A DNA stretch of 27,070 nt. It comes from a virus. Each line of letters opens with the position of its first letter. Position 1 is the stretch's first letter. The position numbers were made by a program, and so were the translations under genes. The DNA lies in the IMG/VR virus record IMGVR_UViG_3300020183_000382, positions 1-27,070 of that record. One strand, 5' to 3'. Under the pieces are notes generated by a model. That model made no database searches. It saw only the letters and a program-made list of their open reading frames with translations, and was not told where the DNA came from. Of the stretch, positions 8,802-18,832 are shown piece after piece.

Positions 8802-9410
8802 ATGGAAGCAATAATAAATGGAATATTTCCAACACCAGTCTATATTTCTAAATTAGATAGAAAACTTTCAAAACAAGAATTAGATTTAGTAAATAAATCT
8901 CAAAAAGATTTTTATAAAAACGAAGGAAATATAACCTCAAATAATAATTATATACTAGAAGAAAAATCATTTAAAACTCTTAAAAAAGATTTAATGTTAA
9001 GAGTACAAGATTATTTTGACAAAGTATTATCTGCTAAAAATGTAGAACCTTACATTACGCAATCTTGGTTAAATTATACTGAAACCAATCAATATCATCA
9101 TAAACACGCACACCCAAACTCTTTAGTATCAGGAGTATTTTATATTAGCTGTGATGATAAATTTGATAAAATTAAATTTTTTAATGAAGGATATAAAACA
9201 TTAAAGTTAGAGGTAAAAGAATGGAATTTATATAATTCTGAAAGCTGGTGGTTTACAGTTAAAACTGGAGATGTAATATTATTTCCATCATCATTAACTC
9301 ACATGGTAGAAACAAAAGAAGGAATAAATACAAGAATAAGTTTAGCTTTTAATGTTTTTGTAAAAGGTATTTTAGGTGATAATAAAAATTTAACTGAGCT
9401 TAAACTATAA
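8802..9410 (+). CDS. 2-oxoglutarate/Fe(II)-dependent oxygenase (TIGR02466 / 2OG-FeII_Oxy_5 type)
   Basis: A 202-residue protein with the family's layout. The N-terminus is FPTPVYISKLD. The core has NYTETNQYHHKHAHPNS followed by LVSGVFYIS (about 91-115), holding candidate iron ligands H102 and H104. The distal part is GDVILFPSSLTHMVE (about 156-170), with H167 as the last iron ligand, and TRISLAFNVF (about 177-186), whose Arg178 would bind 2-oxoglutarate. Enzymes of this fold hydroxylate a substrate using O2 and 2-oxoglutarate; the phage substrate is unknown, and a virion or host protein is more likely than DNA since the gene sits among tail genes. It is not of the TET/JBP type. It starts 18 bases after the previous gene, without a strong ribosome-binding site. 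Confidence 0.85.
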   Translation: MEAIINGIFPTPVYISKLDRKLSKQELDLVNKSQKDFYKNEGNITSNNNYILEEKSFKTLKKDLMLRVQDYFDKVLSAKNVEPYITQSWLNYTETNQYHHKHAHPNSLVSGVFYISCDDKFDKIKFFNEGYKTLKLEVKEWNLYNSESWWFTVKTGDVILFPSSLTHMVETKEGINTRISLAFNVFVKGILGDNKNLTELKL

Positions 9411-12545: not shown

Positions 12546-13010
12546 TTAAAATGGAATTTCATCATCAAGATCGTTCATGTCTATTGGCACAGCATGATCT
12601 GGTGCAGCTGGTTGTGCTTCATTCATACTCACTTCTTTAAATGTTGATGGCATTTTTGCAGATATAGGTTTTATTCCATCAACATTTAAACTTGGATTAT
12701 AAGGTTTTATCATTACTAAACAAAAGATTTGCTCTAAATCTCCTTTTGAATATTTAATTGGATTTTGCATTTCTTGAGTTTTAGTCATATATTTTAAAAT
12801 ATAACCTGATTCAGTATATTTTCTAACCTGTGGTGTATTAAACCATTCAGAAATCTGACTTAAATTATATTTTCTTTTAGTTAATGAACAAATAAATTTG
12901 CATTTAGATGCTTCTCCAGAAAATTCAAATTTTGGGGAAGTATTGCCAGTTGGAAATAATTTCATTGTTAGCCCACAAAATGGCAAGTCGAATTTATTTT
13001 TTTGATACAT
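12546..13010 (-). CDS. Candidate ssDNA-binding/recombination protein with SSB-type C-terminal tip
   Basis: A 154-residue protein ending in DMNDLDDEIPF. An acidic stretch ending in IPF is the SSB C-terminal tip that recruits nucleases, helicases and other repair proteins to single-stranded DNA. It is preceded by a Pro/Ala-rich linker (NEAQPAAPDHAVPI), also as in SSB. The N-terminal 110 residues do not show a textbook SSB fold; they are beta-rich with basic patches (CSLTKRKYNL, TPQVRKYTESGYILKYM), compatible with an OB-like DNA-binding domain. It overlaps the exonuclease gene upstream by 17 bases, so the two are made together, a typical phage exonuclease plus ssDNA-binding pair. Annealase function is possible but not shown. 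Confidence 0.65.
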   Translation of the reverse strand: MYQKNKFDLPFCGLTMKLFPTGNTSPKFEFSGEASKCKFICSLTKRKYNLSQISEWFNTPQVRKYTESGYILKYMTKTQEMQNPIKYSKGDLEQIFCLVMIKPYNPSLNVDGIKPISAKMPSTFKEVSMNEAQPAAPDHAVPIDMNDLDDEIPF

Positions 13011-13767
13011 TGTTTTGTCCTTTTTTTAGTTGATTATATTTTCTTACTGATTCATTGAATAATATCTCAGCTTTATGGCAAGAGAGTAATCCAACGAAGG
13101 CTTTTAAGTGTTCCTTTTTATATAAAATATGCCTTGCTTCGAAATCATCAGAATCTTTTGGCAATCGAACCAAGTACATTTTATTTATTTTTTTTTTTGT
13201 TTGTTCTTCATAAGCGAGTTTATATCCATGAAGCTGTAAAATATGATTGAAAAATAAACCTTTAGAAGTTTTTATGTCTATGAGCCAAAGATTATTTAAG
13301 GGGTCTTTTGCAATTAAATCTAAAGTTCCACAATAACCTCTATCGGAGTATAAGATTTTTTCGCTTTCGACCAACTTCAACTTATTTTTTGACCAAAACT
13401 TTTTAAATTTATAAAAACAATTTTTAATTATGGGATCAGTTGGTTCAATAAATTTTTCTTTTTTAAGCCACATTTCACAAAATTTATGCACCATTGAACC
13501 AATATTTAAAATATTATCACCAGTCTTTTGAGCATTAATTTTTGCATTACTACAAATTTTTTGAATTTGATCTAATGAAATTCCTTCTTTTTCCATTTCT
13601 ATTTTAATAAAATTTATTTGTTGATTTATTTTCCAATTTTCTAGCATTGGTGAAGCCAATTTATTTAAAATTGTACTCATTCCCACAATATATTGATTAT
13701 TATGAATATAAACGTGCTTCTCTTTATTAAACTCTACTTTATAACCATGTTCTGTTGTAATTATCAT
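12994..13767 (-). CDS. PD-(D/E)XK exonuclease (RecB/Cas4-like fold)
   Basis: A 257-residue nuclease with the phage RecB-type motifs in order: H94 in IGSMVHKFCE, E134 in LVESEKIL, D150 in YCGTLDLIA, the D164-x-K166 pair in LIDIKTSKG, and Q178/Y182 in LQLHGYKLAYE. These form a metal-dependent site that resects double-stranded DNA ends. The N-terminus (VEFNKEKHVYIHNNQYIVGMS) is the usual lead-in of phage members. With the SSB-tip protein encoded next it would provide strand resection for recombination or end processing. A clear Shine-Dalgarno (AAGGAGAG) lies upstream of ATG 13767, so this gene can be translated independently. No four-Cys iron-sulfur cluster motif is seen. Confidence 0.85.
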   Translation of the reverse strand: MIITTEHGYKVEFNKEKHVYIHNNQYIVGMSTILNKLASPMLENWKINQQINFIKIEMEKEGISLDQIQKICSNAKINAQKTGDNILNIGSMVHKFCEMWLKKEKFIEPTDPIIKNCFYKFKKFWSKNKLKLVESEKILYSDRGYCGTLDLIAKDPLNNLWLIDIKTSKGLFFNHILQLHGYKLAYEEQTKKKINKMYLVRLPKDSDDFEARHILYKKEHLKAFVGLLSCHKAEILFNESVRKYNQLKKGQNNVSKK

Positions 13768-16918: not shown

Positions 16919-17069
16919 GTTAAAAGAGTTACACTTTGAAGTTATTGATTCAAATAAACAAAAAAACTATAATAAAAAATTAAAAATAATTAAAGTTGTA
17001 AAAGAATTACTTGCTCTTTGTACTAAAGATGAAGCTATTGAAATAATAAATCAACAAAATTATAAATGA
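16911..17069 (+). CDS. 52-residue protein of unknown function
   Basis: The frame begins at ATG 16911, overlapping the nuclease gene by eight bases, and its TGA overlaps the next ATG (ATGA at 17066-17069). The protein is helical and charged: ELKELHFEVIDSNKQKNY, then KLKIIKVVKELLALC and DEAIEIINQ. No domain recognised. Chained overlap on both sides supports real translation. Confidence 0.6.
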   Translation: MTELKELHFEVIDSNKQKNYNKKLKIIKVVKELLALCTKDEAIEIINQQNYK

Positions 17070-18199
17070 AAAATTTATCTTTATTTGAAGATGTAAAAAC
17101 TTTTAATTGGCAAAATGAATGGTTTGGTATGCCTGAATATAACAACTCAGAACAACAAGGAGCAAAAATTAAATTAACTTTTAAATTTAAAAATAAAGAT
17201 GATTATGAATTTTTTAAAAAACAAGTTAAAAAATTTATTTATAATGGAGATAAATTTATTGATGGCAATCAGGGTAAATTTGAAAAACAATCTTGGTTTC
17301 CATTAATAGAAAAAGCTAGTAAATATTATTACAAAGGTAATAATAATCCCAGATTCCCTGTTTATATAATAAGTAAAGGAAGATTTAAAAAAAATCCAAC
17401 AGTACAAACTTTAAATCAATTAAAAGTTCCTTTTAAAATTGTTGTAGAAGAACAAGAATATAAAGAATATTTAAAGATAGTTAATAAAAATAATATTTTA
17501 ATTTTACCTTTTAAATATAAAAAAGAATACGATACATTTTGTAAAGATAATATTCAAATTACTGGTAGCGGAGCAGCTAGAAATTATGTTTGGGATCATG
17601 CCATTGAAAATCAAAGTAATTGGCATTGGATATTAGATGACAATATAGAATCATTTGAAAGATTTAATAATAATATGAAAGTTAAATTTATGTCTGGTGA
17701 TCCTTTTTATATTTTAGAAGATTTTGTTTTAAGATATGAAAATATAGCAGTAGCTGGTTTTGGATATGCTAATTTTGTTCATTGGCATGAATTTAGACCA
17801 CCAATTAATTTTAACACAAGAATTTATAGTTGTTTATTAATTAGAAATGACATTCCTTATCGTTGGAGAGGAAGATATAATGAAGATACAGATTTATGCG
17901 TTAGAGTTTTAAAAGATGGTTGGTGTACTGTTCAAACTAATATTTTTTTACAAGGAAAAATGGCTACACAAAAAATGAAGGGTGGAAATACTGATGAAAT
18001 ATATAAAGATGGAACTTTAAAAAAAAGCCAAATGATTGTTGATATGCACCCTGATATTGCAAGACTTACAAAAAAATTTAATCGTTGGCATCATCATATT
18101 AATTATAAAATATTTAATAAAAATATACCAATAAGAAAAAAAAATATAAACATTAATGCAGAAATTAATAACTATGGATTGCAAAGATTTAAAGTATAA
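17066..18199 (+). CDS. TET-associated-type glycosyltransferase (TAGT family) with extra N-terminal domain
   Basis: A 377-residue protein. Residues about 97-353 match the TAGT glycosyltransferase family: PVYIISKGRF, a GSGAARNYVWDHAI element (167-180), HWILDDNIESF (187-197) with the DDN resembling a GT-A metal site, NTRIYSCLLIRNDIP (250-264), RWRGRYNEDTDLCVR (266-280), KMKGGNTDEIY (303-313) and RWHHHINY (340-347). In other phages TAGT enzymes add sugars to hydroxymethylated bases made by TET/JBP oxygenases. Residues 1-90 are a separate module (WQNEWFGMPEYNNSE, then ISKxF-like beta elements) known from phage proteins but without assigned function. No TET oxygenase or DNA methyltransferase is visible in the window, so the acceptor is unknown. 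Confidence 0.8.
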   Translation: MKNLSLFEDVKTFNWQNEWFGMPEYNNSEQQGAKIKLTFKFKNKDDYEFFKKQVKKFIYNGDKFIDGNQGKFEKQSWFPLIEKASKYYYKGNNNPRFPVYIISKGRFKKNPTVQTLNQLKVPFKIVVEEQEYKEYLKIVNKNNILILPFKYKKEYDTFCKDNIQITGSGAARNYVWDHAIENQSNWHWILDDNIESFERFNNNMKVKFMSGDPFYILEDFVLRYENIAVAGFGYANFVHWHEFRPPINFNTRIYSCLLIRNDIPYRWRGRYNEDTDLCVRVLKDGWCTVQTNIFLQGKMATQKMKGGNTDEIYKDGTLKKSQMIVDMHPDIARLTKKFNRWHHHINYKIFNKNIPIRKKNININAEINNYGLQRFKV

Positions 18200-18274: not shown

Positions 18275-18832
18275 ATGTCAAAAAGAAGCGGTTATTTTTT
18301 AGTCTATCGTGATATTTGGAAAAATCCTGTTTTTAAAAATTTACTTCAGGCTTCTTGTTGGATTTATTTTATAAGTTCTGCTTCACATAAAGATCGAACT
18401 TTAAAATTTTTAGATAATAAAATATTTGTAAAAAGAGGAGAGATGATTATGCCACTACGAATCACCGCTAAAAGATTTGGTATGACTTATTCGGAAATGA
18501 GATCGTTTATACTAAGGCTAGTACGTAAAAACATGATTACCACTAGGACTAACCACTTACAGCCCACTAAAAATCACTTGAACAGAAAAGTTACTCTAAT
18601 TAGCCTTGTAAATTATGACAAATTTCAATTTGTTTCTGACGAACAACCACTTACAAACCACTTACAGCAACAAGTACTAAATAATTATACTAATGAATTA
18701 TATAATAATACTAGGTCAAGCAAGGTTGTGGATAAAGTTATAGGAACTGAAGGAAATTATAATATTTTATTATTAAATGGCAAAAAATATCTAAAACATA
18801 AATTTAAACAAGAACCTCTTAAAGAATATTAA
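18275..18832 (+). CDS. Replication initiator, lambda O/DnaD-type N-terminal winged helix
   Basis: A 185-residue protein. The N-terminal domain follows the replication-initiator pattern: SGYFLVYRDIWKNPVFKNL, then CWIYFISSASHKD, FVKRGEMIMPLRITAKRFGM and TYSEMRSFILRLVRKNMITT (about 6-90). Residues about 91-132 contain repeated TNHLQ/KNHL elements encoded by DNA iterons, and the remainder is a polar linker with a short basic end. Such proteins bind the phage origin and load host helicase. At 185 residues it is shorter than lambda O, and no helicase loader follows. With no polymerase or primase in sight this gene is the central candidate for replication start. Confidence 0.75.
   Translation: MSKRSGYFLVYRDIWKNPVFKNLLQASCWIYFISSASHKDRTLKFLDNKIFVKRGEMIMPLRITAKRFGMTYSEMRSFILRLVRKNMITTRTNHLQPTKNHLNRKVTLISLVNYDKFQFVSDEQPLTNHLQQQVLNNYTNELYNNTRSSKVVDKVIGTEGNYNILLLNGKKYLKHKFKQEPLKEY
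18540..18667 (+). repeat. Origin-like iterons inside the replication initiator gene
   Basis: AACCACTTACA occurs exactly at 18551-18561, 18645-18655 and 18656-18666, the last two directly abutting. CCACT cores also occur at 18540 and 18564, and TCACT at 18574, giving core spacings of 13, 11 and 10 bases in the first cluster and 11 in the second. The exact copies are read in two reading frames (as NHLQ and as PLT), so the conserved unit is DNA rather than protein. An A+T-rich stretch follows at about 18676-18713. Confidence 0.8.
18668..18722. other. A+T-rich stretch next to the iterons, candidate unwinding element
   Basis: Between the last iteron and about 18716 nearly all bases are A or T, with short TAATTATA and ATTATATAATAATA runs. 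In lambda the unwinding region also lies beside the O iterons. The whole genome is A+T-rich, so this is only suggestive. Confidence 0.4.

Follow-up and report, generated by a model that had tools for sequence, protein, structure and literature searches.

A candidate replication origin embedded in the DnaD-like initiator gene of a SAR11 phage

Why would the coding sequence of a replication initiator carry the same short DNA sequence in two different reading frames? The question is raised by the gene at 18275–18832 (plus strand, 185 aa) of a 27,070-base virus record from a phage of the marine SAR11 (Pelagibacter) group, the whole of which we refer to as the window. The original prediction saw in these repeats, and in the A+T-rich stretch beside them, an origin of the kind that lambda carries within gene O.

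The initiator gene and its relatives

The gene product is assigned as a winged-helix DnaD-like replisome organizer by PHROG profiles and tblastn. In profile searches, phrog_27581 matches the protein at E 7.5e-38 and phrog_2514, ‘DnaD-like helicase loader,’ matches residues 5–148 at E 2e-15; SPP1 gp38 matches both families, and the N-terminal winged-helix domain is homologous to that of the SPP1 gp38/phrog_2514 type. By tblastn, direct orthologues annotated ‘DnaD domain protein’ are found in HTVC111P (68% identical), HTVC202P (66%) and HTVC026P (51%), while the distant matches include SPP1 gene 38 (E 4e-4) and other phage replication proteins. DnaD proper was rejected as the identity of the protein because its C-terminal DnaB_2 (DnaD) domain, PF07261, is absent in the Pfam search, which gave no DnaD_N match either; DnaB_2 is present in a Staphylococcus phage relative. 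The structure model of the initiator is poor (mean pLDDT 58), and the winged-helix call makes use of its helix-strand order. Fold comparison with this low-confidence model returned no match at E ≤ 0.001, the DnaD N-terminal domain 2v79 appearing at a weak rank with so poor a query, and a pelagiphage profile compared with solved structures gave nothing useful.

The C-terminal half of the protein consists of a linker and a 35-residue beta domain, the latter seen only in pelagiphage relatives. These 35 residues (18725–18829) are modelled as a beta-rich mini-domain, a candidate contact for the host helicase. The phage collection contains no copy of the mini-domain outside this initiator, and elsewhere it was found only in HTVC111P and HTVC202P; as it is absent from other genes, we rejected the notion that it is a mobile module. 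One relative, with an initiator 67% identical to this one, lies on a contig that is catalogued under a Flavobacteriaceae MAG and is probably a binned phage contig.

A few other genes in the window deserve mention. The protein encoded at 12546–13010 (minus strand), adjoining an exonuclease gene (phrog_298, 12994–13767), has no Pfam or PHROG match and ends in DLDDEIPF, the kind of acidic tail that typifies single-strand DNA-binding proteins. Immediately before the initiator gene, on its upstream side, lies a glucosyltransferase-like gene (phrog_842, 17066–18199, plus strand), which is not annotated at that place in HTVC111P, and a 2OG-Fe(II) oxygenase-like gene (phrog_81) occupies 8802–9410 (plus strand).

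Repeats in two reading frames and their concerted change

The 11-mer AACCACTTACA occurs exactly three times on the plus strand, at 18551–18561 (site 1), 18645–18655 (site 4) and 18656–18666 (site 5), with no further exact copy in the window. As predicted, sites 4 and 5 are in tandem, and the copies are read in two frames, sites 1 and 5 in frame 0 as NHLQ and site 4 in another frame as part of QPLT. The degenerate cores that had been pointed out alongside them, CCACT at 18540 and 18564 and TCACT at 18574, are all present; the relatives described below back the third strongly and the second partly, and give no backing to the first. We refer to them as site 0 (18538–18548), site 2 (18562–18572) and site 3 (18572–18582), all on the plus strand, site 0 being a possible, weak iteron suggested by its sequence and spacing only.

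The codons for the wing strand and the NYDKFQ motif divide the array in two, the distance from the last upstream core to the first downstream core being 73 nt, close to seven helical turns. After the wing motif, the two tandem exact copies stand 11 nt apart, about one helical turn. A second cluster of iterons comparable to SPP1 oriR was not found in the window, where the other clusters were weak matches in Gly-rich codons at 7.8–8.3 kb.

Taken from the window alone, the significance of the iterons is moderate. When the initiator gene was shuffled among synonymous codons, a triple-copy 11-mer appeared in 0 of 20,000 shuffles, while 4% contained two 11-mers out of frame with each other; when codon order was shuffled, the corresponding figures were 1% and 12%. 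Copies with up to two mismatches number 16 window-wide against 10.4 ± 3.4, and since these near-matches are not significantly enriched, the weak cores could not be claimed from the window alone. One might then suppose that the repeats belong to a low-complexity linker peptide, or to chance, and have no function as DNA. The linker is indeed predicted to be disordered, and the pair frequency of 4–12% in shuffles of this one gene leaves some room for such a view, which we nevertheless find scarcely credible in the light of the comparative data, which already contradict it.

It is the relatives that, judged from their sequences, make the iteron signal decisive. Codon alignments were made for 97 unique genes, used for covariation, and for a larger set of 116 genes. 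The core varies among relatives (CCACTTA, CCACCTA, CCACATA, CCAGTTA), the three isolate orthologues having the C-type iteron, CCACCTA, and copies within one phage mostly agree. In sites 1 and 5 the seventh base of the 11-mer is the first letter of its codon, and in site 4 it is the second (residue 126). Across the tandem pair of sites 4 and 5 the 116 genes have this base as CC (74 genes), TT (22), AA (12) or a mixture (8), so that the two sites are concordant in 108, and their spacing is 11 nt in 112. We ranked 408 variable nucleotide columns of the 97 genes by their mutual information with base 18651 of site 4. The counterpart positions in the other iterons came first: 18578–18580 in site 3, 18662 in site 5 and 18557 in site 1 scored 0.82–0.84, and 18568 in site 2 followed at 0.53, partial covariation, ahead of the next column at 0.45. 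Site 3 reads CC at the covarying bases in C-type phages and AA or TT in T-type phages; in this set the matching base of site 0 shows no covariation with the rest of the array.

These changes have happened repeatedly. On a tree of codons 1–85 of the 97 genes the site-4 base changed at least five times, and in the three supported independent pairs on that tree, a number too small for a formal sign test, sites 1, 3 and 5 all changed in the same direction; in the larger set the minimum number of changes is 10–18 per site. Codon choice follows the same division. Leucine at sites 1 and 5 is encoded by CTA in 130 of 142 cases in C-type genes, compared with 241 of 951 in the rest of their sequence, and by TTA or TTG in all 37 cases in T-type genes, compared with 157 of 329 elsewhere. 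Out-of-frame 11-mer repeats within 120 nt occur in 44 of the 116 initiator genes and in 4 of 204 control ORFs. Concerted change across frames that alters the amino acid at one site and leaves it unaltered at another speaks against a linker peptide or chance, as do the synonymous conservation and the family-wide repeats considered below, and it favours the predicted reading of the conserved DNA as probable protein-binding sites rather than a peptide repeat. Relatives that kept the peptide while losing the DNA repeats had been named as evidence that would tell against this reading; what we see is the reverse, residue 126 varying among P, L, H, V and R while the DNA repeats shift together. Both the concert and the conservation could be inflated by recombination, including recent exchanges, of an origin cassette.

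Synonymous constraint and the A+T-rich tract

Higher synonymous conservation at the iterons had also been predicted, and it was found, most strongly in the adjoining A+T-rich tract (18668–18714, plus strand), a putative DNA unwinding element with TACTAA-type repeats at 18675 and 18688 and TACTAG at 18709. Relative to amino-acid-specific expectation, the observed/expected ratio of synonymous differences is 0.40 at codons 123–131 (18641–18667, sites 4 and 5) and 0.18, the lowest in the gene, at codons 132–146 (18668–18712); there is little depletion at codons 91–103 (sites 1–3, 0.90), and codons 104–122 stand at 1.05. None of 20,000 column permutations gave a 24-codon block as low (P < 5e-5). 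The tract carries most of this signal, and the iteron blocks alone (codons 91–103 and 123–132) are not significantly low (P 0.09). The A+T richness of the stretch is real but modest, the 40 nt from 18674 lying at the 95th percentile of the window, and the importance of the tract therefore rests on its synonymous conservation. In most relatives the tract holds TACTAA, TATCAA or TGTCAA repeats 13–14 nt apart. In one clade the copies of this second repeat family have gone from TACTAA to TGTCAA or TATCAA through non-synonymous changes, partly in concert.

Two other causes of the constraint were rejected, conserved RNA structure because zero pairs were found and an overlapping reading frame because there is no alternative open frame. 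Synonymous constraint and repeats by themselves leave the binder unspecified, and an embedded packaging or recombination signal, such as a pac/cos-like site or a recombination hotspot, might be imagined to produce both. We consider this very improbable. The terminase genes lie downstream, the small one by ~0.9 kb (19656) and the large one by ~2.6 kb (21361), and the position beside the wing-coding region is one shared with SPP1 oriL.

A second possibility is that the sites are operators, bound by the initiator or another phage regulator acting on the early operon, and that replication starts elsewhere. The phage does have HTH regulators, and tandem sites facing one side of the helix are what one might expect of an operator. 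GC skew also turns at the divergent promoter region instead of at the repeats: the turn predicted near 18.6 kb is absent, and the skew follows divergent transcription, with a local minimum in the window at ~16 kb. In HTVC111P and HTVC202P it turns at 4.04 kb and 3.80 kb, respectively, with the initiator gene starting at 5.0–5.3 kb. Because the turns in all three coincide with transcription divergence, GC skew is uninformative as an origin marker, and we rejected it as such. The sites, however, lie deep in the coding region, away from a promoter; a promoter within the tract was rejected, as its TATAAT-like hexamer is not conserved in relatives and a scan of the tract gave no plus-strand match. 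A constrained A+T-rich tract beside the sites fits an unwinding element better, and proven homologues use the same location as an origin. We regard the operator as an unlikely explanation.

The origin reading and known systems

Together with homology to an initiator that has a proven in-gene origin, the cross-frame constraint on the DNA, the concerted sites and the constrained tract, all read from sequence, make an origin with initiator-binding sites within the initiator gene the best-supported reading: 18551–18714 is very likely an initiator-bound replication origin of the SPP1/TP901-1 type. In our model, the winged-helix domain (residues ~1–115) would bind the 11-bp iteron array, composed of the strong tandem pair at 18645–18666, the strong site at 18551 and the degenerate sites at 18562 and 18572, roughly on one helical face. 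Binding would then strain the adjoining TACTAA-repeat tract, leading to its opening, after which host helicase, primase and polymerase would be brought in. We infer that the initiator binds these sites, that the tract melts, and that replication begins at this point with recruitment of host DnaB, perhaps directly or perhaps via a further partner. As the original prediction noted for helicase and polymerase, some of this machinery is not recognisable in the phage itself: neither the window nor the three complete isolates contains a DnaB helicase (DnaB_C), a family A polymerase or a DnaC/IstB-type loader, in searches where the control genomes (for all three), the SPP1 helicase and the Staphylococcus phage loader records all scored. 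No origin is annotated in the HTVC111P, HTVC202P or HTVC026P records.

SPP1 offers the closest comparison. Its oriL consists of direct repeats and an A+T-rich unwinding element within gene 38, bound by gp38 (PMC6316719). Besides the homologous N-terminal domain, gene 38 has direct repeats, out of frame and 11 nt apart, directly behind the NYxxYQ motif. An A+T-rich stretch of Asn codons comes next, as the tract adjoins the repeats here, and a further repeat copy lies in the wing-coding stretch. In contrast, gp38 has a C-terminal Phg_2220_C domain, which was not found in the window phage, and SPP1 encodes the helicase loader gp39 and the helicase gp40 (PMC6316719), neither recognisable in the window phage; a phage-encoded helicase and loader pair is likewise missing from the three isolates. 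The organizers of the lactococcal P335 phages TP901-1 (ORF13) and Tuc2009 (Rep2009) each bind repeats that lie within their own gene and act as the origin, and there are earlier descriptions both of origins inside genes and of initiators that lack a phage loader (PMC8965321); we liken these organizers to the present case by description, and they differ in belonging to Gram-positive temperate phages. Compared with the proven cases, the window phage has a split array, a C-terminal half made of linker and beta domain, and no recognisable helicase or loader.

The predicted likeness to lambda stands as far as iterons within an initiator gene are concerned, while the nearest proven relatives are SPP1 gp38/oriL, TP901-1 and Tuc2009 rather than lambda O. 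In lambda, iterons lie within initiator gene O at ori-lambda, as given in the record annotation and in PMC6022878. The lambda iterons are annotated as 18 nt long at ~20–24 nt spacing, and lambda has the loader P. No lambda record appears among the tblastn matches and the window protein has no O-like PHROG, so the likeness is an analogy only.

How widely is this arrangement shared? We examined the 130 nt after the NYxxYQ motif in 54 DnaD-like phage initiators with <80% mutual identity over the tested segment, leaving out 20 loci that the motif pattern failed to match. In 41 of the 54 there is an exact 8-mer repeat at lag 11 (synonymous-shuffle mean 14.9, maximum 20), and in 46 there is one at lag 11 or 22, at the same place as here. 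Behind the array there is usually an Asn-rich tract, its mean A+T being 0.82 compared with 0.61 in the array, and 9 of the 46, compared with 2 of 230 control segments, have an iteron copy in the wing-coding stretch. In the in-gene repeat test lambda O and SPP1 38 score positive; the HTVC026P gene has no exact 9-mer repeats in it, although its sites read as CCACCT variants. As 11 is not divisible by 3, three successive iterons give rise to an 11-residue peptide repeat in some members; one linker has such a repeat (EHRKDSEKTVK), consistent with three 11-bp iterons in three frames.

We tentatively raise the possibility, without leaning toward it, that DnaD-like winged-helix initiators share one design, in which out-of-frame 11-bp iterons after the wing are followed by an Asn-rich unwinding element, here the TACTAA repeats, so that the apparently disordered linker is a translated origin. 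The pelagiphage form would be a reduced one, its array split and its unique C-terminal domain of 35 residues in direct contact with the host replicative helicase. The signature of out-of-frame 11-bp repeats and an A+T-rich Asn tract by NYxxYQ could predict origins in many uncharacterised phages. For the present group of phages, which seems to depend on the host replication machinery, the segment described above offers a precise origin candidate.
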